Origin: Nematopogon swammerdamellus
Lineage: Eukaryota > Arthropoda > Insecta > Lepidoptera > Adelidae
Direction of reading: 5' to 3'
DNA: 64,000 nt
Assembly: GCA_946902875.1 (NCBI GenBank)
Contig: OX336340.1
Span: forward strand, 15,143,566 to 15,207,565
This document shows, piece after piece, positions 7,535-63,616 of this stretch (position 1 is its first letter; the number at the start of each line of letters is the position of its first letter). A program made the translations under genes and the position numbers. The notes below the pieces were generated by a model, which did no database searches, had not been told where the DNA came from, and saw only the letters and a list, made by a program, of their open reading frames with translations.

Positions 7535-8184
7535 ATGTCTATTTGTCTGTCTGTCTTTCTGTGTGTCTGTCCGTCAGTCCGTCCGTTTGTCCGTCTGTCC
7601 GTCTGTCCGTCTGTCCGTCAGTCCGTCCGTCCGTCTGTCCGTCTGTCCGTCTGTCCGTCTGTCCGTCTGTCCGTCTGTCCGTCTGTCCGTCTGTCCGTCT
7701 GTCCGTCTGTCCGTCTGTCCGTCTGTCCGTCTGTCCGTCTGTCCGTCTGTCCGTCTGACCGTCTGTCCGTCTGTCCGTCTGTCCGTCTGTCCGTCTGTCC
7801 GTCTGTCCGTCTGTCCGTCTGTCCGTCTGTCCGTCTGTCCGTCTGTCCGTCTGTCCGTCTGTCCGTCTGTCCGTCTGTCCGTCTGACCGTCTGTCCGTCT
7901 GTCCGTCTGTCCGTCTGTCCGTCTGTCCGTCTGTCCGTCTATCCGTCCGTCCGTCTGTCCGTCCGTCCGTTCGTGCGTCCGTCCGTCCGTCCGATGGCTG
8001 TATCTTCGGAACAGTAATAGCTAGCCGGTTGGAATTTCACAGATTATGTTATTTTGGCGGATATAACAACGAATAATAAAACATTGAAAAAGTCAAAAAT
8101 TAAGAGAGGTCCCCATACAAGAAATAAAAAAAAATTGTAGTGCGGAAAACTCAGTGCACGAGTCCGATTCTTGGCCTTTTTTTT
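7535..8184 (-). repeat. GACA/GACG-microsatellite repeat family, copy with a greatly expanded microsatellite
   Basis: In minus orientation it starts GGCCAAGAATCGGACTCGTG at 8184, contains the conserved TTATATCCGCCAAAATAAC-like and CAACCGGCTAGC segments, and ends in the microsatellite. Sister copies: 18035, 18680, 42633, 46990, 59741. Confidence 0.7.
7543..7990 (+). repeat. Microsatellite of 8-bp unit GTCTGTCC
   Basis: About 55 tandem units with a few variants (GTCA, GTCTGACC, GTCCGTCC). Three forward frames are open only because the 8-bp unit contains no stop; the SVCPSVRL peptides are artefacts. Confidence 0.95.
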
Positions 8185-9740: not shown

Positions 9741-10226
9741 GTTTTGGAAACTAGGTGCACGTTTTATACATGTTTTGCTAGGCCGCGAATAAATGTTAAT
9801 TTTAACGGAGACGTCTCTGAGTGAAAGCAATTTAAGTAGGTATCCAAGGAAAACCAATGACCTTATAATAACATAGCGTATGTCTGCCTTAGGGCTTCAA
9901 AGTGCAATTTGAATTCCCAAAATCGGTCGGTAACTTTTTGAGATTTTCCAAAATTTGTCAAAAATTAAAAAAAAAAATTCGCCGACTTGGATCGAGAATT
10001 TCCCAATTTTTTTTTAAGCTCGCTATTCAAGAAAAGAAAAAAATTGAATCACGGGATTGAATTAAGCTACAGTATGAGCTATCTTAGGAGGCGGGCGGAC
10101 CAAAACTGTAGGCGGTAGCGGGTCCCTTACGCGCGAGGTTCACTTTATCGTTAGTACGATAAAGAATGAATTTCCTATTAAGGCCCTGTCAACCCTATAC
10201 ACCCGTACTCCTCTTTCAAGGGGCCG

Positions 10227-10248
10227 CACAGTGGTTCGAAAATCGAAC
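10227..10248 (+). repeat. Left terminal inverted repeat of the Transib palindrome, heptamer CACAGTG
   Basis: Heptamer CACAGTG at 10227-10233 is followed by GTTCGA-AAA-TCGAAC, a 6-bp inverted repeat with a 3-nt loop. The same bases in reverse complement form the right end (12915-12936). No clear nonamer is visible at 12- or 23-bp spacing. Confidence 0.8.
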
Positions 10249-10972
10249 GTAGAAGACTTAGGGTTTAAAAAAAATGTACTTCTTTTTTTCGATATTTTTA
10301 TTATGTTAACGTGTTGTCCATATTATAACAAATATTTTTTAATCATACACGTTTTTTTCTTAGCCTAACAGTTTAGGAGATATACCACTTTTATGGTTTT
10401 CAATGTATGAAAATAATTTTAAAAAATTAATTTCTTAAAAACCTTAAAATATATTACATAATTCTTTTCATGATACGATTAAGTAACTATTCGACTATTT
10501 TCATGCAAACGCTGTACCCTCGCAAATGCTCGCAACTCTGCACAGTGGAGAATTTATGTGAATTTTGTTTTTAAAATTAACTCATTCAAATTGTGTCACC
10601 CTACAACTCTACTTAAGAAATACTTCAAAAACAGGATTACAGGATGACTTCTGCGCAAAGATTTAAATGCTAACTGTTAACACTTGTTAGCAAATTAGGG
10701 TTATAAAAAGTTTAAAACTTGCTCATCAATTTTGTAAATTGTAGGGTATGCATACATTGGAGTTCAAAAAAAGCTAGTATACTATTAATCAGTGTAGAAT
10801 AATACACATTTCGTTTATACATACCACTGTCATATCTACAACATAGAATAAAATAAATTGCGTTTTGTTAATTTTTTTTTCATAGAATATTTATTTCTAT
10901 AATAATAACATTTAATATGTGCCGCTGATTAATGAATACCATGAGTATACCACCCGAATCAAATAATTCATC

Positions 10973-11728
10973 TTGAAAAAGAAAGATAAGCATATACTTA
11001 CGCCAGAAAAATCTCTCGGAACCATGCTATCTACAAAACTGACCAAATGGCAATATAACGCCATGAGAGCGATAACACAGAAGGAAGGAGTGACTTTGTC
11101 AACCTCGATAGCTCAGTGGTGCAGACAGTCAACTGTCGCTATTGAATGTTAAGCAACGCTGGGTGCGGTTAGTACCTGGATGGGTGACCGCTGACCGTTG
11201 GAGACTGACCGAGGTTCGGATTCCTCGTAAAACTGTAGGTCCCTTCCCTCCTAATCTTACTTGGTGGTAGGGTTTAACCCACCCGGGTTGGTACCACCGC
11301 ACTGAATGAAACGTCGGTTGAAACGGCTATGTAAATAGTTTTTGTTTTCCGACCAGTCCAGTGTAGCCGGCACGATCAAAGGGGGAGGCACGTAGTTCAC
11401 CCGTTGTTATGGGCTGAAATCACGGACGTTGTAGATGATGTAGCCAACCGTGTCAGTTTCCATAAAAAAAAAAACTCTTTTTCCTTCCTACTATAAAATT
11501 AAAAAATCCAAAGAAGAGTGCTATCCAGCAAAAGAAGACGTCACAATCACTGAGACAGATGTACAAATAAAATTACAATCTTTATTGGATTTGACAACGA
11601 AAAGGCTATTCATGCTTATATCGGATTACGATAACGAGAATGTGGAGTACAAATTAGAAAGTAAGTGGGGAGTAGACGGAGCTTCAAACCAAAGCACCTA
11701 TAAACCAAATTCTACCCGAGGATAGCGA
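10973..11728 (+). pseudogene. Transib transposase N-terminal half, left arm, split by a SINE and frameshifted
   Basis: Mirror copy of the right-arm reading frame. The frame begins near 10973, reaches the segment before LFPSYYKIKK and is broken by the SINE at about 11098-11474; it resumes at 11475 and reads to SNQSTYK. There an extra C relative to the right arm shifts the frame and it ends after PNSTRG. The two disruptions absent from the right arm show that this arm decayed after the palindrome formed. Confidence 0.7.
11098..11474 (+). mobile_element. SINE body family, full-length with tRNA-like head, inserted in left Transib arm
   Basis: The head TAGCTCAGTGGTGCAG fits a pol III A box and GAGGTTCGGATTCCTC a B box. 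The conserved body follows (ACTGTAGGTCCC, GGTGGTAGGGTTTAACCC, GGCTATGTAAATAGTT, GTGTAGCCGGCACGA, CATCACGGACGTTGTAG, GTGTCAGTTTCCATAAAA). The empty site can be read in the opposite arm (GTGACTCTTTTTCC), which dates the SINE after the palindrome. The target duplication is only about 3-4 bp (ACT). Confidence 0.88.
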
Positions 11729-12191
11729 CGATTCGTGTGTTTAGATGGCAAGTCTGGTACCCATAAAGCTTACTTGTGGCGAGAAAACAATGACTTGCCA
11801 TATAGACAGACGAATCGTCGCTATCCTCGGGTAGAATTTGTTTATAGGTGCTTTGGTTTGAAGCTCCGTCTACTCCCCACTTGCTTTCTAATTTGTACTC
11901 CACATTCTCGTTATCGTAATCCGATATAAGCATGAATAGCCTTTTCGTTGTCAAATCTAATAAAGATTGTAATTTTATTTGTACATCTGTCTCAGTGATT
12001 GTGACGTCTTCTTTTGCTGGGTAGCACTCTTCTTTGGATTTTTTAATTTTATAGTATGAAGGAAAAAGAGTCACTCCCTCCTTCTGTGTTATCGCTCTCA
12101 TGGCGTTATATTCCCATTTGGTCAGTTTTGTAGATAGCATGGTTCCGAGAGATTTTTCTGGCGTAAGTATATGCTTATCTTTCTTTTTCAA
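11712..12191 (-). pseudogene. Transib (RAG1-like) transposase N-terminal half, right arm
   Basis: An open frame of 159 codons. After a basic start it reads LTPEKSLGTMLSTKLTKWEY, then TLFPSYYKIKKSKEECYP, TITETDVQIKLQSLLDLTTK and SKWGVDGASNQSTYKQ. In Transib proteins the segments YPSY...KK.CYP, ITETSA...LQALLDHT and KWGFDGSSGHSQYKQ occur in this order. The Asp of WGVDG should be the first catalytic acidic residue, equivalent to the first Asp of the RAG1 core. The frame runs through the loop (SSVYMASHCFLATSKL) and then into antisense sequence of the other arm, so the C-terminal catalytic residues are missing. The upstream start is uncertain because the track may include part of a 5' intron or UTR. 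Confidence 0.78.
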
Positions 12192-12941
12192 GATGAATTA
12201 TTTGACTCGGGTGGTATACTCATGGTATGCATTAATCAGCGGCACATATTAAATGTTATTATTATAGAAATAAATATTCTATGAAAAAAAAATTAACAAA
12301 ACGCAATTTATTTTATTCTATGTTGTAGATATGACAGTGGTATGTATAAACGAAATGTGTATTATTCTACACTGATTAATAGTATACTAGCTTTTTTTGA
12401 ACTCCAATGTATGCATACCCTACAATTTACAAAATTGATGAGCAAGTTTTAAACTTTTTATAACCCTAATTTGCTAACAAGTGTTAACGTTAGCATTTAA
12501 ATCTTTGCGCAGAATTCATCCTGTAATCCTGTTTTTGAAGTATTTCTTAAGTAGAGTTGTAGGGTGACACAATTTGAATGAGTTAATTTTAAAAACAAAA
12601 TTCACATAAATTCTCCACTGTGCAGAGTTGCGAGCATTTGCGAGGGTACAGCGTTTGCATGAAAATAGTCGAATAGTTACTTAATCGTATCATGAAAAGA
12701 ATTATGTAATATATTTTAAGGTTTTTGAGAAATTAATTTTTTTAAATTATTTTCATACATTGAAAACCATAAAAGTGGTATATCTCCTAAACTGTTAGGC
12801 TAAGAAAAAAACGTGTATGATGAAAAAATATCTGTAATAATATGGACAACACGTTAACATAATAAAAATATCGAAAACAAGAAGTAATTTTTTTTTAAAC
12901 CCTAAGTCTTCTACGTTCGATTTTCGAACCACTGTGGGCCG

Positions 12942-17155: not shown

Positions 17156-17398
17156 ATTATCTCCATTAGGAGAAAAGAACGACAACATAATACGATCGCA
17201 TATAGAATTATGTAAGACTATTGATGACTGCTGCAACTTGTTAATTACTTACCGTCCGTTTGACACGATCTAGATAATTACATAATAGCGTTAATAGCGA
17301 TAGCACAGCCTCTGCAGTCACTGACCTCAGGTAGCGAACCAAAATTCGATCATTGCCACACAACAGAGATTTTTTTTATGAACATCAGCATGCGTTTG

Positions 17399-17765
17399 TC
17401 AGCCTCGATAGCTCAGTGGTGCAGACAGTCGAATGTCGCTATTGATTGTTAAACAACGCTGGGCCGGTCAGTACTTGGATGGGTGACCGCTTGACCGTTG
17501 GAGGCTGACCGTGGTTCAGATTCCACGTTAAACTGTAGGTCCCTTCTGACCTTACTGGGTGGTAGGGTTCAACCCGCCCGGGTTGGTACCACCGCTGAAT
17601 GAAACGTCGGTCGAAACGGCTATGTAAATAGTTTGTGTTTTCCGTCCAGTTCAGTGTAGCCGCACGACCGAAGGGAAGCACTGACATGTCACCTAGTTCA
17701 CCCGATGTTACACATTACGGATGTTGTAGGTGATGTAGCCAACCGTGTCAGATTCCATAAAAAAA
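17399..17765 (+). mobile_element. SINE body family, full-length, tRNA-like head
   Basis: Starts CAGCCTCGATAGCTCAGTGG (A box) with GGTTCAGATTCC (B box, 17514-17525), followed by the conserved body and the CATAAAAAAA tail. It is the cleanest reference for the family in this window. Confidence 0.88.
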
Positions 17766-25480: not shown

Positions 25481-25483
25481 TTC

Positions 25484-25870
25484 TTTTTTTATGGAAACTG
25501 ACACGGTTGACTACATCACCGTACTAGGTCCGTGATGTCAGCCCATAAGACCGAGTGAACTAGGTGCCATGTCAGTGCTTCCCTTTGGTCGAGCCGGCTA
25601 TACTGAACTGGATGGAAAACACGAACTATTTACATAGCCGTTTCAACCGGCCTTTCAATCAGTGCGGTGGTACCAACCCGGGCGGGTTAAACCCTACCAC
25701 CTAGTAAGGTAAGAAGGGAAGGGATCTACAGTTTTACGTGGAATCCGAACCACGGTCAGCCTCGACGGTCGAACGGTCACCCATCTATCCACTGACCGCG
25801 TCCAGGAGTGCTTACTATCGGACCCACAGTGGAGTGGACCGACCGCACCACTGAGCTACCGAGGATGACA
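25484..25870 (-). mobile_element. SINE body family, full-length
   Basis: T-run then ATGGAAACTGACACGGTTGA at the left. Head CACTGAGCTACCGAGGATGA at the right, which is the tRNA-like A box in reverse complement. Confidence 0.83.
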
Positions 25871-26183
25871 AAATATTATATCTATATATGTAGGCAATTA
25901 TATACTTCCTACATGTTTAAACATTAGATATGAATTGAAAAAATTGTGCAAATTACTTTTGAGGGGAATAGGAAATGTATATATGTACCTATATGGCGTA
26001 CGTACATATATATGTTGAAGCCAACGATCATCGATATCTATAATATCATATTTTTTATTATAATTTGAATACTTACGAATATAAAGAATATGTTTTGATT
26101 GTGTAGAGAATATTTATTGGCGATCGGGGGCCGCCGCCCGCCCGCCTTCCTCAGCCGGCCGCGCATGTTTTATCCTAGAACGA

Positions 26184-34619: not shown

Positions 34620-37550
34620 ATAAAATACACGAGTTGTCGTTCTAATGGCTTTTTGGTTCAATGCCTATTGTAAGTGTTTCGTTATAGTTTTTTGTTAGGA
34701 GATATATTGTTGGGTTGAGGCTTGTTGCTGAGTATTGCAATAGGTAGTGACTAAGTTCTCTCTCAATCATCGACGTGTAAAGACACTTTTCAACACTTCA
34801 TTAGGGCATTATTACAAAAATTTCAAAACGCTTTACTTCGGGTCCATTAGAATAATTACATACAAAATAATTCATTCATTTTATTTGTACATAATTTACA
34901 ACGAAATATTTTAAACTTGTGTTGCCTGATTTATGACCGTAATTAAAAATTCGAGTAAGAAAATAGGTATTCAAGCATTGCATTGTTGTGTGGATACACA
35001 AACGTAATTGATAATATACATAAATTCTTAATTTGTTATTACGACGCCTTCTGTTAGTTGGTATGAATGTAATAATAAAATTCTTCCCAGTTTTGTGTTC
35101 TACCTTATGCACCTTTCAAGTTTCAAAACATCCTACAACTAATTCCTACAGGAATATTTGGTGTATGAGCCGACATACCGTCGTACACTAATATGCCTAA
35201 GTACTTTCTAATACACTGTTAACCCAAAAAGTAAGATCGTATTCAAAATAAATTATGAAACATCCGCACCGTTTAGCAATTTACGCCAACTCCACTCACA
35301 AACAACGGCCGATTGTATTGTGGCTTGGCTGTCAGACACACTCTGCATACAGGCTGTCACACTTGTTACATACGACGGGTTTATGTTTGTTTGAGAGACT
35401 GTCAGCTAACTGCTATATAATTTTTTTTTCATTTATATTATCCACCTTCATGCATTTTTTCCACATCACCAAGGTCACTTTGTAAAGAATTATTGATAGC
35501 ATTAAACTCGCCTTTTTTGTCCTATGTTTTAATGGTGTGCAATAAAGTATATTTTGATTTGATGAGTTATCATATCATTGTAGCGTAGACTATTTCATCT
35601 ACAATAAATTGGAGTCACACATTGTACAGCATACAGGATACAAGGTGAAGTTTAATTACTCCCAAGTAAACATGTTACGTACACCGATTACTATGTCAAA
35701 GTGCAAACGATTATGGTGTTCCCAAAACAGCCCGAAAATCACACTGAGCTGGGAAAATCATCTGGTATGGCATATCACTGAGTGAAGTTTCGCGAGAAGA
35801 GGTGAATTTGGCTCTGTCGAATGCAGCAAATTTGTGATAGTGATGGGGGTTTCTCGGCACATCCACCTCTGCTGGTTTTCAAAACAAAAAGTAAAAGTAT
35901 ATTTACAATCCGAATACCCGAAATTACTATCTAATCTATCTAAATCAAACAATTTCAGGAAATCGTAATCAAATAAAATTCAACATAACATTCCTTCCTT
36001 CCCATTTCATCAATTCATTCATCCAATCAATAGGTTGACTGATTGACTGACATTATGTCAGTCAAGTCAGTGACATATTTTCATGGCTTGTCTTGTCACT
36101 TGTCCGTCTGTGGTTTAGTTAGGCCATTACGGCCTTTAAAAAATTGCCATAGCGGACGGTATTTCACGTCCACCAGGCGGGGTATTGGTAAAGTTTTCAA
36201 CTAGCAATAATCGCACCTCGGTTAAACCTCATTGGTTACGATATTGCCTCTGCGCAAAGTTAGCAAGACGAACCCAGTATGGAGCTTATAAACTAAGAAA
36301 AGTAAATGTCTCCACTGTCATGTATTTGTCAATGTGGCGCCATCTGTGATCGCGTCGGATAAACAAGAAGTCGCGTGCGAGAGTTATGCGGTGGCATGTA
36401 CCAACCAATGGATATATCGTACCAATGGGTATGATATAAGTGGATAATAATACCTAGTTATTCTAGTGCAGGAACCACAAGGAAACCTGTGCACGGCCAA
36501 GGCTGACTGGAAGAAACTGCATTTTGCAATTTACCTACTAATAGTAGGTTATTTTACCATACATACTAGGCTACTATGTATTGTAACATATGCAATACAC
36601 AGGTAATAAATTGTTATTTATTTATTACATATTTATTTTCTGCTAATAATGCCAGTCTTAGTCGTTATTAAGGTCTATTTGGTATATTGGAGGCTATTTT
36701 TGCTATTGAGAAAATATTTTGAATCATTATTGGTACCTATTTGATTGCAAAGCTCAATAATGTAGATACGTATATTCTGGCCTTCAGTTATTGTTACGAT
36801 CATTCGTAAATTGAATGCAAGCAACACAATTTCTATTTAAATTCTTGTCAGTTTAATTTCTTCATACAAAAGAGTTGAACGCAGCAGGAAACCCAGGCGT
36901 CGTCGCGTCGTTGTCGGTCGGCACAATCAATATTATACCCGTGTGTTATTTTGAACAAAATGTAGAATACCATTTCAAAATTTACCAAAAATTGCGACCA
37001 CGAAAATTTTCGAATGTTACATTGAAAAAATAAAAATATTTTCTAATGGGGCTTGTGGCGTATTGTTGGAACCGGTGGGCAATCACGAAATAATTCACAA
37101 AACTTAAATACCTATTTAATGAAAAATATACAAAATTAAAATTCAAAATTTGAAGAACATGCAAAAATGGTGTCCCATCCCTATATTTCTAAAATGATAG
37201 AATACGAATTTCCGAAAAAAAAATCACAGTCTGGATAATTTATTGATAATTACAGGGAAACAATAACAATAAAGTATATACAAATAGTGGTCGCAACAAT
37301 TCGGCGCGTTCCACCCTATATTATAACTCGAATAAGAACCGCATAGCTTTGAATTCTTTTTCAGATTTGGATATGCAGCAGTTTTTTTGTAAAAATCTCC
37401 AATGCGATGGATCTGGATGGAATCATGATGATACAACTTGTCCATCTGTCTGTCTGTCTCCATATCGTAGCGCTAAGTGGGTAATAGAACATTTAAATTT
37501 TTTATAATACAGAAGAAAAAAAGACATAATTTTCGTGTATGGAAATTTAG
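34620..37550. other. Largely unassigned AT-rich stretch
   Basis: Apart from the LINE fragment at 35755-35850 I see no gene or named repeat. Confidence 0.4.
35755..35850 (+). repeat. LINE 3' UTR fragment, same as in 17770-18005
   Basis: TCTGGTATGGCATATCACTG and TTTCGCGAGAAGAGGTGAAT match the minus strand of 17800-17860. Confidence 0.5.
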
Positions 37551-52600: not shown

Positions 52601-55600
52601 CCACCGTGATGTCAGCCCATAACACCTTGGTGAGCTAGGTGCCATGTCAGTTTTTCCCTTTGGTGCCGGATACACTGAACTGTCTTTTCTAATTAAGATT
52701 TAGCTAGTTTAGAATAGGAATGACGAAGAATTCTCTACATAAATTGTTTTGTTCTAATGTATTCCAGAAAGATCACGGTCTGAATCCGCTGAATGTACAT
52801 ATTATTGGACACTCTCTCGGTGCCCACACGGCTGGCTATGCAGGAGAGAGAATACAGGTTGGCATCAAACAAAACCTAGCTTTCACTCACTTGTTGACTA
52901 TGCACAAAATATTTGTTACTTCAAATATTATCTTCTTATTGTTTGCTGTGATTATTAAATTATGTTTTGGAAGAACTTTTTATTATGATTCTAAGGATTA
53001 TTAAGTATGTGTATTTTGTAGGAAAACCTACCTAGGTATAGTTATTATTTTTATTGTTGTATGGTTGTTTATATTTTCTCGTTCTCAATGCATTGTTTAT
53101 AGTTTTCCTTGATTTAGCTTCGTGTGTTCTAGGGTCTAGGTCGGATCACGGGGTTGGACCCTGCGGAACCCTACTTTCAAGGGATGCCCGTGCAGGTGAG
53201 ACTCGATCCCACTGACGCAGAGTTCGTAGATGTTATTCACACCGATGGCAAGAGCATCTTCCTCTTAGGTAATATGTCATGTTATAGTTCATCGTTTGCT
53301 GTATTCCATACGTTGCTGTCGTGTTCTTTTTTTTTCATTTATTTATAATTTTGATTTATAATCTCTATATTTTGTTACAGTTGCATGATTTTTTTTTATA
53401 ATTTATATTTTGTGTCGAACTGTATTGCTTGTATATTATTTAACGAAATCAGATTATTACGCTTCATCTTTGTACGTTTTAGTTGATTGTGTTTGAATGT
53501 ACCATTAATGCGTAAGTATTTATTTCACGCATGCCATAGACTTTGTATTTATGGCAGGATATGGAATGAGCCAGCCTGTGGGCCACCTAGATTTTTATCC
53601 CAATAACGGGAAAGAGCAGCCCGGCTGTGACCTCACAGAGGGACCGCTTGTGCCATTGACGCTCGTGAAGCAGGGCTTGGAGGAAGCGTCGAGAGTCTTG
53701 GTGGCCTGCAATCACGTCCGTGCCATAAAATTGTTCACAAACTCGATCAATGGGAAATGCCCATATATTGGTAAGTTTCCAAATATATTTTAATTAGCCA
53801 AGATAATGTTAGTGTCACCTCATATTGAACTTTTTGTATGACCCTCTTTTGCCTTCTTAACTTTGGCTGCTAACTTCACACCGGTTATTTTCAATAATGT
53901 TGATGCAATGCAACACGAAGGAAATGACTTTACCTCCATTAGATTAGTTAGAAGCTAACTATTTGAAAGTGTTATTTATTTATTCTTAATTAAATTGTTA
54001 TTTCGATCTTCGATTAAGTGTTTACAAAAAGAGTAAAGTTAAAGTAAAAAAATAAAAAAAGTAAAAAATTTACGTACCTATTTATTTCTAAATAATGAGG
54101 CCGTCTACGTTTTTTGCCTCCGAAAATAGCCACTACGGCCGTAGCATCGCGGAGACACAGTAATTTCCACAAATAAAGAAGAACCGTAATGTCACTTAAT
54201 TTTTTTTTTTATGGAAACTGACAGTTGGCTACATCACCTACAACGTCCGTGATGTCAGCCCATAACACCGGGTGAACTAGGTGCCATGTCAGTGCTTCCC
54301 CCCTTTGATCGTGCCGGCTACACTGAACTGGTCGGAAAACACAAACTATTTACATAGCCGTTTAGACCGACGTTTCATTCAGTGCGGTGGTACCAACCCG
54401 GGCGGGTTAAACCCTACCACCAAGTAAGATTAGGAGGGAAGGGACCCACAGTTTTACGAGGAATCAGAACCTCGGTCAGCCTCCAACGGTCAGCGGTCAC
54501 CCATCCAAGTACTGACCGCACCCAGCGTTGCTTAACATTCAATAGCGACAGTTGACTGTCTGCACCACTGAGCTATCGAGGCTGCCATAATTATACAAAT
54601 TAGGCACAATAGGAGAGCTTAATGTCTTAATAATTAACAGAAAGTACATTTAAATTAACTTTAATGTATTTCAGGTCATCAATGCCCGTCGTACCAACAC
54701 TTCTTGGATGGAAAATGTTTCAATTGTGGCCATGGATGCGCTATTATGGGGTGAGCCATTCTTACTAACCACATATCTATTGCATTATGTAATTATCTCT
54801 AAGTTTGATATCTAAATGAATTGAAAAAATAAGAATATTGAAAACAAACATTCAGACTTCATAAAGGTTCTTGCTTCATATAGGTTCCACGCCGACAGTA
54901 CACCCGGACTCATAACGAACAAGAACAACCAATCAGAGAACGAAGTATTTCCATCAGAAGAGAGAGATACTATCGGTGCTAAATACTTTCTAAGTACAGG
55001 AAAGGAGTTCCCATTTTGCCGTAAGTAGAAATTACACACAAGGGGTGGTTCAAATAAATATATTATAATTATTCTCTGAGTGAAAAAACATAGTTAATAT
55101 TAATTTCTTATTAAAGTATTTATGTAGTAGGTATTCGTTTGTAGTTTATCAATTATTATCATACATATTTCTTTACAGTTTAATACATTGCCACAAACTA
55201 TTTTGTTCGCCTGCATGTACTACTCCCACATTCCAAAGGTTAGTTGGAATAGAATGCCTCACGGCATTAAGCTATCCTATTGTGCCTAATTTGTATAAAT
55301 TGATGTTCAATAAAGAATATATAAATAGGTACACAATAAGTTAGTAACATGTATGTAGTCTGGAAATATAAAAATGGTTGCATAATTCACTAAAAGGAGT
55401 AGAGTCAGTCAGTCAGCGTGCATGCATCCACTGCTGGACATACGCCTCTCCAATCTTTCTCCAGTCCTCCCAGCCTTCAGCGATACGGAACCACTGATTG
55501 CCTCCGAAGTACTAGGTAAACGTCGTCGTCCCGCCTGGCGGGTGGTCTTCCCACACTCCGTGTTCCTTTCCACGGCCGCCAGTGTAGGACCCGTTTGCTC

Positions 55601-62208: not shown

Positions 62209-63616
62209 AAAACCTACAAAATAACCTACTCGCAGAACACACTCTGAATGGGAGGTACTGGTTTAATAAACTGAAGCCCAGACTCATTCAGAGCGTCACT
62301 AGGTTTAGCAACCTTGAAGCCCCTACCTATCGCTCTCCGACATTGCCTTTGCACGGATCGAAATATGAGGCCGTAATCTTAAAACCGAATGTAATTTTAG
62401 ATTTTGGCCTTGAAAAGGACATGCCACGCGCTGAAGAATCGTTCAAGATTATTCTTGATAGAGATTGGCACGGGTGGGATGTAATTTTTACGGATGCCTC
62501 AAAATTAACACCAAAAGGTAACGTAGGAGTTGCCGTATATAAGCCCGGAAGCAACGACTACATGCGCACTCAGTGCCCACCCGAGTCCTCGGTCTATACG
62601 GGCGAGTGTATGGCTCTACTGGAGGCTGTCAGATTTGTGTCCCTCTCCGACACACTGGAACGGATCATAATTTTCTCAGATTCCCGCAGTTCTCTTCAGG
62701 CATTGGTACAGAACCCATTCAATTGCCAAATTCATAATCCCATAGTTCTATGTATTAAAGATACATTACTCACCTTAGGTCAAAAACAACTTGTTTTTGC
62801 CTGGATACCTTCACATACCGGCATTCGAGGCAATGAGCGTGTAGACGCTCTAGCCAAGGAGGCGGTGGTGTGTGGAGATAGGGCTCCGTTCATTAATTTT
62901 CCCCATGATTTGTTGGCACTCCCAAAAACATACCTTCATGATTCCTGGTCCGATGAATGGTCCGTGTCCAGTCGAGCGAGAGGGTCTTACTATGCCACCA
63001 TTCAGTGGGTCATACCCGCAAAGCCTTGGTTTTTTAAAATTACGGCTAATAAAAAGGAAACCTCAGTTCTGTGCCGAATGAGAATTGGACACTGCTGCAC
63101 TCCAGTGCATCTAGCCCGACTTCGTATACTTGACTCATCAATCTGCGAGTGCGGACTGGACGAAGGAACCCTAGACCATATCCTCTTTGGTTGTCCAATT
63201 ACCCTCGCGGTTAATTCCCCTCCGTTATATGCCACTTTACATTTGTTTAAAGTCCCACTTCCTACTAACATACAAACGATACTGTATACTAACAATTCCC
63301 ATGTTATAAAATATATATTAAAATTTATAAAATGTAATGACGTAAGACTGTAATTAATTATATATAAATATATGTATAATGTTTTAGTTATTTATTTTCA
63401 TCTTATTTACAACTAAGTATGTGTCTTCCAGAATTTGTGCATGCAAACTAGTAACTTCAAATGCTTCGTTCCTTTCAACATTATTTTGTTTTATTATATT
63501 ATAAAAAATAATCACAAATTTATACCGTGCAACTCCGTCACTGGATACTGGCAGTAATAAACGAATTTCCTATTCGTTTGGTTGCCACTATTTAAAAAAA
63601 GAAGAAGAAGAAGAAG
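62209..63616 (+). mobile_element. 5'-truncated non-LTR retrotransposon copy with 8-bp target duplication and (GAA)n tail
   Basis: The direct repeat AACCTCTT lies at 62201-62208 and 63617-63624 and marks the insertion edges. Between them are the 3' part of ORF2, a 3' UTR containing TATTCGTTTGGTTGCCACTA, an A-run and (GAA) repeats. The open ORF and intact duplication suggest a recent insertion. Other tails of the same family lie at 27305-27390 and 59342-59566. Confidence 0.85.
62211..63353 (+). CDS. LINE ORF2 C-terminal part with intact RNase H domain
   Basis: The frame is open from 62211 to the TAA at 63351-63353, about 380 codons, with no start codon expected because the copy is 5' truncated. 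Counting from the codon at 62343, the RNase H acidic residues are D51 (FTDAS), E88 (TGECMALLEA), D113 (FSDSRSSLQAL) and D168 (GNERVDALAKEA), preceded by WIPSHTGIRG. All four catalytic positions are present. A C-terminal CxC-type cluster (ICECGLDEGTLDH then FGCP) looks like the zinc knuckle found after RNase H in such ORF2 proteins. The reverse transcriptase and endonuclease domains are absent. RNase H points to the I-like group of non-LTR elements, but the clade is not certain. This is a transposon gene, not a host gene. Confidence 0.85.
   Translation, partial: NLQNNLLAEHTLNGRYWFNKLKPRLIQSVTRFSNLEAPTYRSPTLPLHGSKYEAVILKPNVILDFGLEKDMPRAEESFKIILDRDWHGWDVIFTDASKLTPKGNVGVAVYKPGSNDYMRTQCPPESSVYTGECMALLEAVRFVSLSDTLERIIIFSDSRSSLQALVQNPFNCQIHNPIVLCIKDTLLTLGQKQLVFAWIPSHTGIRGNERVDALAKEAVVCGDRAPFINFPHDLLALPKTYLHDSWSDEWSVSSRARGSYYATIQWVIPAKPWFFKITANKKETSVLCRMRIGHCCTPVHLARLRILDSSICECGLDEGTLDHILFGCPITLAVNSPPLYATLHLFKVPLPTNIQTILYTNNSHVIKYILKFIKCNDVRL

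Follow-up and report, generated by a model that had tools for sequence, protein, structure and literature searches.

The palindromic element at positions 10227–12936 of the window (the whole 64,000-nucleotide stretch of Nematopogon swammerdamellus DNA analysed here) very probably belongs, as a non-autonomous member with an internal deletion, to a Transib family in which one ~1.2 kb sequence forms both ends, in opposite orientations. Throughout the sampled members the 3′ end repeats the 5′ end, which is best read as an extension of the terminal inverted repeat (TIR) of the kind proposed for Galileo. A sequence-only reading of the window had described a 2.7-kb near-perfect inverted repeat with CACAGTG at both outer ends and GGCCG on either flank, all of which is borne out by the sequence; what its account of the arms left out is a SINE-like insertion of 378 bp, carried by the left arm alone. 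The parts of the element are as follows (coordinates in the window, strand, description and basis).

10222..10226, no strand: left target-site duplication GGCCG (sequence)
10227..12936, no strand: palindromic non-autonomous Transib element, 2,710 bp (inverted-repeat search; 2,710/2,710 identity to the L031 copy)
10227..10233, plus: terminal CACAGTG of the left end, resembling the RSS heptamer (sequence)
10227..11754, plus: left arm, comprising the 5′ non-coding region and the N-terminal transposase part, split by the SINE-like insertion (inverted-repeat search, alignment)
10541..10547, plus: second CACAGTG, 314 bp inward from the left end, with its mirror copy at 12616–12622 (sequence)
~11096..11473, plus: SINE-like insertion of ~378 bp with an A-rich tail, missing from the right arm (alignment)
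11477..11792, plus: transposase segment as it stands in the left arm, frameshifted and with a TAG in frame at 11742 (sequence, alignment)
11755..11791, plus: 37-bp loop, continuing the left-side transposase sequence (sequence; the same stretch reads on into the gene remainder in L045 and L046)
11712..12191, minus: open frame for the N-terminal transposase segment, ending just past KWG-DG-S-YKQ and lacking all later enzyme regions
11792..12936, minus: right arm, repeating the 5′ end in inverted orientation and free of the SINE (inverted-repeat search, alignment)
12930..12936, minus: terminal CACAGTG of the right end, inverted (sequence)
12937..12941, no strand: right target-site duplication GGCCG (sequence)

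Aligning the arms with each other, as that reading had proposed, gave 20 substitutions and 5 gap columns per 1,150 aligned columns (left-arm insertion excluded), and the inverted-repeat search resolved them into blocks of 457, 420, 235 and 52 nt at 97, 99, 98 and 92% identity. The first 48 bp are identical between the two ends in the alignment, so that no 12/23-type end asymmetry is seen over this stretch in a comparison scored by letters and not by nonamers. At up to 3 mismatches, the window has two occurrences of the terminal 18-mer, where shuffles lead one to expect 0.04. The second CACAGTG, ~314 bp inside each end, was found in the window element and in both arms at 19 of the 20 loci compared, and may be either a buried end or a chance occurrence. 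With TIRs of many hundred bp that make up most of its length, the element is of the long-TIR or Foldback-like type. MITEs are short non-coding elements of less than about 0.8 kb, and the window element, at 2,710 bp and with transposase fragments inside it, is not one of them.

The SINE-like insertion is present in 20 of the 21 elements compared (it is missing from L049) and is also missing from two SINE-free longer members described below, L051 and L052. The same host repeat, with its A-rich tail, has many matches in the window at 69–94% identity (e.g., ~54201–54587, 17395–17765 and 25481–25872); by eye its head looks 5S- or tRNA-like, and an Rfam search with the copy at 11096–11473 returned no match. 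Elsewhere in the window we observed an array of ~56 copies of the 8-bp unit GTCTGTCC at 7545–7993, inside a 160-codon open frame, a full-length match to the U4 spliceosomal RNA at 36123–36261 on the minus strand (121 bits), and a 336-aa open frame with an RNase H domain at 62343–63353 on the plus strand, which is probably from a non-LTR retrotransposon.

Transposase segment and superfamily

The right-arm frame (minus strand, 12191–11712) matches residues 6–135 of the Helicoverpa zea Transib chain 6pqn_A with E=3e-33, the match including SKWGxDGASNQSxYKQ, which confirms the earlier claim that the arms hold a Transib transposase segment. We infer that the Asp in SKWGVDGASNQSTYKQ is the first catalytic Asp; for the H. 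zea enzyme, Hztransib, the residues quoted are D126, D225 and E436 (excerpt of PMC6941560). The segment in the window arms stops shortly beyond SKWGVDGASNQSTYKQ, and an active enzyme is therefore not encodable by either arm. A protein database search gave two relatives, P0001 and P0002, among 54 candidates; the window copy ends at about residue 233 of P0001, the longer members L045 and L046 cover its residues 129–578 and 129–554, respectively, and this coverage, together with the match to 6pqn_A, assigns the gene to the RAG1-core-like DDE transposases. A complete catalytic gene was not found in the window copy, and the four full-centre copies read (L045, L046, L051 and L052) are broken. Since its transposase gene is incomplete, the window element is a non-autonomous Transib member. 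A Pfam search with the window fragment gave no match for the transposase piece, and no relative was found in a viral sequence collection.

Transib ends start with CAC, like the V(D)J signal (excerpt of PMC8355894), and CACAGTG stands at both ends of the window element. GC-biased 5-bp duplications are described for RAG-type elements and for Transib (excerpt of PMC8289069), and GC-rich 5-bp target-site duplications accompany 22 of 23 elements of the present family. The identification as Transib, made previously from the letters, is supported by the transposase match, the CACAGTG ends and the 5-bp target duplications together.

Movement of the palindrome and spread of the family

The window element is identical over 2,710/2,710 positions to a copy on another contig (L031), and differs from two further sisters by 2 substitutions (L032) and by 1 substitution and 1 indel (L033); the SINE, the loop and the differences between the arms are carried along in these copies. 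The target repeats are GGCCG, CGCCG, CGCCG and GCCGC for the window, L031, L032 and L033, respectively, and the 2-kb flanks of the four copies have no common sequence at the insertion points, their matches being dispersed repeats only, at least 100 bp away. Identical or near-identical palindromes of 2,710 bp at unrelated sites, each with its own target repeats, indicate that the window palindrome moved as a unit, by independent insertions, as the sequence-only reading had claimed. That reading had also named a circumstance that would speak against it, namely that GGCCG belongs to a longer shared repeat; we looked at this, and the repeat is 5 bp long and the sister flanks are unrelated. Because a palindrome with a SINE and a ~2% arm difference stands almost unchanged at three other places, its multiplication must be very recent.

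Two other explanations of the palindrome were considered and rejected. It could have formed in place and never moved as such, with the GGCCG match due to chance or left by the original insertion, and the family targets are indeed so similar that two random ones match with probability about 0.31. The sister copies refute this scenario, which we regard as highly improbable: exact target repeats occur in 22/23 elements, and the near-identical 2,710-bp palindromes lie at unrelated sites. Palindromes are also classic assembly and fold-back artefacts, a source of error that had been named in advance as one that would refute the interpretation. The arms differ by substitutions (~2%) and by the SINE insertion and are therefore unlike a fold-back read artefact, and the palindrome recurs with the same internal differences at four independent sites, with relatives at many more, so that an artefact of either kind is scarcely credible.

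The genome search for matching Transib copies that had been suggested was carried out with the arm against the window's own 699-Mb assembly, where the best 40 of 184 candidates were scored and fell at 31 distinct places, nine pairs of matches being the two arms of one element. Scoring was best first, which under-represents older or rearranged copies and makes the family copy number a lower bound. Of the 31 places 23 were examined (the window, 20 fetched loci, and parts of L028 and L030), and a second, inverted arm was present in all 23, just 70 bp of it lying within the piece for L028; three of the remaining eight (on C19, C21 and C25) have an inverted second-arm piece by their coordinates in a search with the centre of L046. 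The CACAGTG heptamer is found at both ends in 19 of the 20 fetched loci, L036 being without one end. A perfect 5-bp target duplication flanks 22 of the 23 fully fetched elements (19/20 loci plus the window, L051 and L052), with the same L036, which has lost one outer end, as the exception; the targets (n = 22) are CGGCG in nine cases, CGCCG in eight and five further sequences, each seen once. At eight of 20 loci (L034, L035, L038, L039, L042, L043, L045 and L050) one end has a point change or a missing base within its first 26 bp, and the end rows are alike over 48 bp in 20/22 cases, the other rows differing by point changes or one lost base.

Longer relatives and the origin of the arms

Four longer members, two with the SINE (L045, 3,987 bp; L046, 4,000 bp) and two without it (L051, 3,457 bp; L052, 3,529 bp), hold most of the remainder of a broken transposase gene between ~1.2 kb inverted arms, each arm consisting of the 5′ non-coding region and N-terminal transposase sequence that reaches to about residue 241 of P0001. 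The right arm of L046 reproduces 869+351 bp of the left side, and in L045 the repeats are 833+351 bp long; small deletions occur in the arms of L045, L051 and L052. L046 aligns to the window apart from its positions 1565–2855, about 1,291 bp of centre, and the deletion joint in the window (AACAATG/ACTTGCC) has a single G common to both sides. This alignment indicates that the window copy is an internal-deletion derivative of a longer member: a deletion of ~1.29 kb with a 1-bp overlap turned a 4-kb member into the near-perfect window palindrome, and the 37-bp loop is the uneven left-side remainder.

The centres of other members vary. The arms of L047 and L049 meet at a joint that is shorter than, and unlike, that of the window copy (L049 being without the SINE), and L037 and L048 have a centre in reversed orientation with respect to the SINE-bearing arm, which suggests recombination between the two arms. 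Nine palindromes (L034, L035, L038–L043 and L050) have a further insertion near the centre, at arm position 1089–1098. In L034 it is ~840 bp long, has CATCGATG at its ends and is flanked by an 8-bp target repeat (CCTATAAA); L050 has the same borders. L034 also shows a THAP-like start, and we label the insertion P-like; this nested element apparently owes its multiplication to the Transib ends.

The search with the L046 centre, in which the best 40 of 69 candidates were scored, was informative about the right end of the family. All 16 matches that span the query from position 1 to at least 1217 are adjoined by 55 bp of the second arm in inverted orientation, this arm is complete in all four full-centre matches that were fetched (L045, L046, L051 and L052), and an ordinary copy with a different 3′ end was not found among the scored matches. 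Weaker matches, at 66–70% identity, are probably other Transib families; one of them, L053, has short local palindromes only, with no long inverted repeat within 4.3 kb, and no end pair passing the filter was found in it. The four full-centre members read are not intact: all four have a stop where P0001 and P0002 have a conserved Trp, as well as frame breaks, and no intact transposase is found among them. As the four full-centre copies read are all broken, the family has been moved in trans, now or until recently. A transposase acting in trans would pair the two like ends, excise the element and reinsert it, duplicating 5 bp of GC-rich target.

Each end of the element consists of sequence from upstream of the transposase gene, and the earlier description of two 5′ ends therefore holds, in many copies. 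The accompanying claim, that the 3′ end had been replaced in the window copy, does not: a second 5′ end is present in every examined member, so that any replacement or extension is ancestral, and the window copy lost only its centre. The origin of the long arms would lie in an ancestor and was probably a single event; the most likely mechanism is recombination or repair synthesis by which the right side received an inward copy of the left end. In L045, L046, L051 and L052 the right arm is followed by 22 bp that correspond to arm position 663–684, and then by the 3′ non-coding region; this inner junction with its 22-bp piece is common to six members (these four, L037 and L048) and shows a 4-bp overlap.

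A tree of 40 arm sequences from 21 elements also bears on this history. The opposite arms of 12 of the 21 elements cluster separately from the SINE-side arms, but in the nine elements that carry the further insertion the opposite arms fall among the SINE-side ones, and L049 has its own two arms clustered with each other, a pattern that we read as one old duplication with later homogenisation. Partial homogenisation of the arms within subfamilies means that arm divergence gives no date for the duplication, and its use as a clock was rejected; the inner junction common to six members is the stronger sign and speaks for a single founding duplication. Sites 49, 50, 105 and 115 separate the arms in most of six elements compared, and the outer ~115 bp of the right end were considered as a relic of a distinct 3′ end; this too was rejected, because L051 and L052 are without those site differences.

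There is an even chance, in our judgement, that long symmetric arms are simply the old, ordinary state of this lineage, as in Hztransib, so that no 3′ end was ever replaced and the inner part was lengthened later. Hztransib is a 3,518-bp element with 489 aa, described with 'long TIRs' (excerpt of PMC1852546), to be set beside the SINE-free copies of 3,529 and 3,457 bp, although its TIR enters the comparison by the description 'long' only, without a length. The 22-bp piece is as expected if an older repeat of 684 bp ended there before its extension to ~1,220 bp, but it could also be a templated insertion at a repair junction, and the arms do not diverge consistently more over their outer 662 bp than over the inner part. 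Slightly short of even is the chance we give to the loss of a distinct 3′ end in one step, in which repair synthesis by a folded-back strand, or by one that had invaded a sister copy, placed the 5′ 1.2 kb on the right side and left the 22-bp piece as a template-switch scar. The make-up of the junction (the piece from 663–684 and the 4-bp overlap) and its recurrence in six members fit such an event, which is opposed by the lack of any different 3′ end among the scored matches to the L046 centre (best 40 of 69). For the sampled members as a whole we retain TIR extension as the best reading; under the Galileo-type model, a broken terminal repeat would have been repaired on the template of its partner, the copying extending past the repeat into internal sequence, and the 22-bp piece would mark the inner limit of the older repeat of ~684 bp.

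Comparison with known systems and significance

Hztransib resembles the present family in its related RAG1-like transposase, its 5-bp target duplication, its 'long TIRs' and its length of 3,518 bp against 3,529 bp for L052 (excerpt of PMC1852546; PDB 6pqn). Its purified enzyme is active and cuts with a hairpin on the flank (excerpt of PMC6941560), whereas the four full-centre copies here are broken, and near-perfect palindromic derivatives are not mentioned in the excerpted parts of the Hztransib reports (PMC1852546, PMC6941560). ProtoRAG of amphioxus is likewise a RAG-type transposon with GC-biased 5-bp target duplications, but prefers an asymmetric 5′/3′ end pair (excerpt of PMC8289069), whereas the ends of the window element are alike.

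The likeness to Galileo of Drosophila lies in the architecture. According to the excerpted account (PMC3573991), the TIRs of Galileo were lengthened by recruited internal sequence (TIR1-F1-F1-TIR2), the proposed origin is a broken TIR2 repaired from TIR1, and some copies are reduced to two TIRs and a short middle. The two differ in superfamily and transposase, and in that the Transib repeat takes in the N-terminal transposase segment and that the recruited part adjoins 16/16 full-centre matches. The P superfamily, to which Galileo belongs, has a THAP-type P transposase and an 8-bp target duplication; the window element, with its RAG1-like segment and 5-bp duplication, is not a member of it.

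Mu killer of maize holds part of a transposase gene as an inverted duplication and has one terminal repeat in two copies; hairpin RNA and silencing have been proposed for it (excerpt of PMC3440606). It is a locus, whereas the present family is mobile and multicopy. One could imagine a Transib lineage that lost its own 3′ end, lives with two 5′ ends and is efficiently mobilised by the pairing of identical ends, and whose palindromes, if transcribed, would yield an N-terminal hairpin RNA, so that the family would spread its own silencer as a mobile counterpart of Mu killer; we consider this combination improbable. A palindromic Transib family was not noticed among the matches listed from the open-licence literature (titles and abstract openings), which is no proof of absence. 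A Transib repeat that includes part of the transposase gene, stands beside every full-centre match examined and yields mobile near-perfect palindromes may be new among those literature matches.

The sequence-only reading had presented the element as a natural test of end symmetry. Copies with identical ends have indeed been amplified, but the test is weak: the ends are reported to be symmetric in most Transib families (excerpt of PMC8289069), few families have 12/23-like ends (excerpt of PMC8355894), and Hztransib itself has 'long TIRs'. The finding alone overturns nothing, because symmetric Transib ends were already reported as usual. What it adds is a RAG-family transposon that has been amplified in nature with the same ~1.2 kb end on both sides, its members ranging from near-complete elements to near-perfect palindromes. 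The lengthening of TIRs known for Galileo would thereby extend to the superfamily that founded RAG1, with coding sequence drawn into the repeat, and the family offers ready substrates for asking how dispensable the end asymmetry favoured by V(D)J recombination and ProtoRAG is in Transib.
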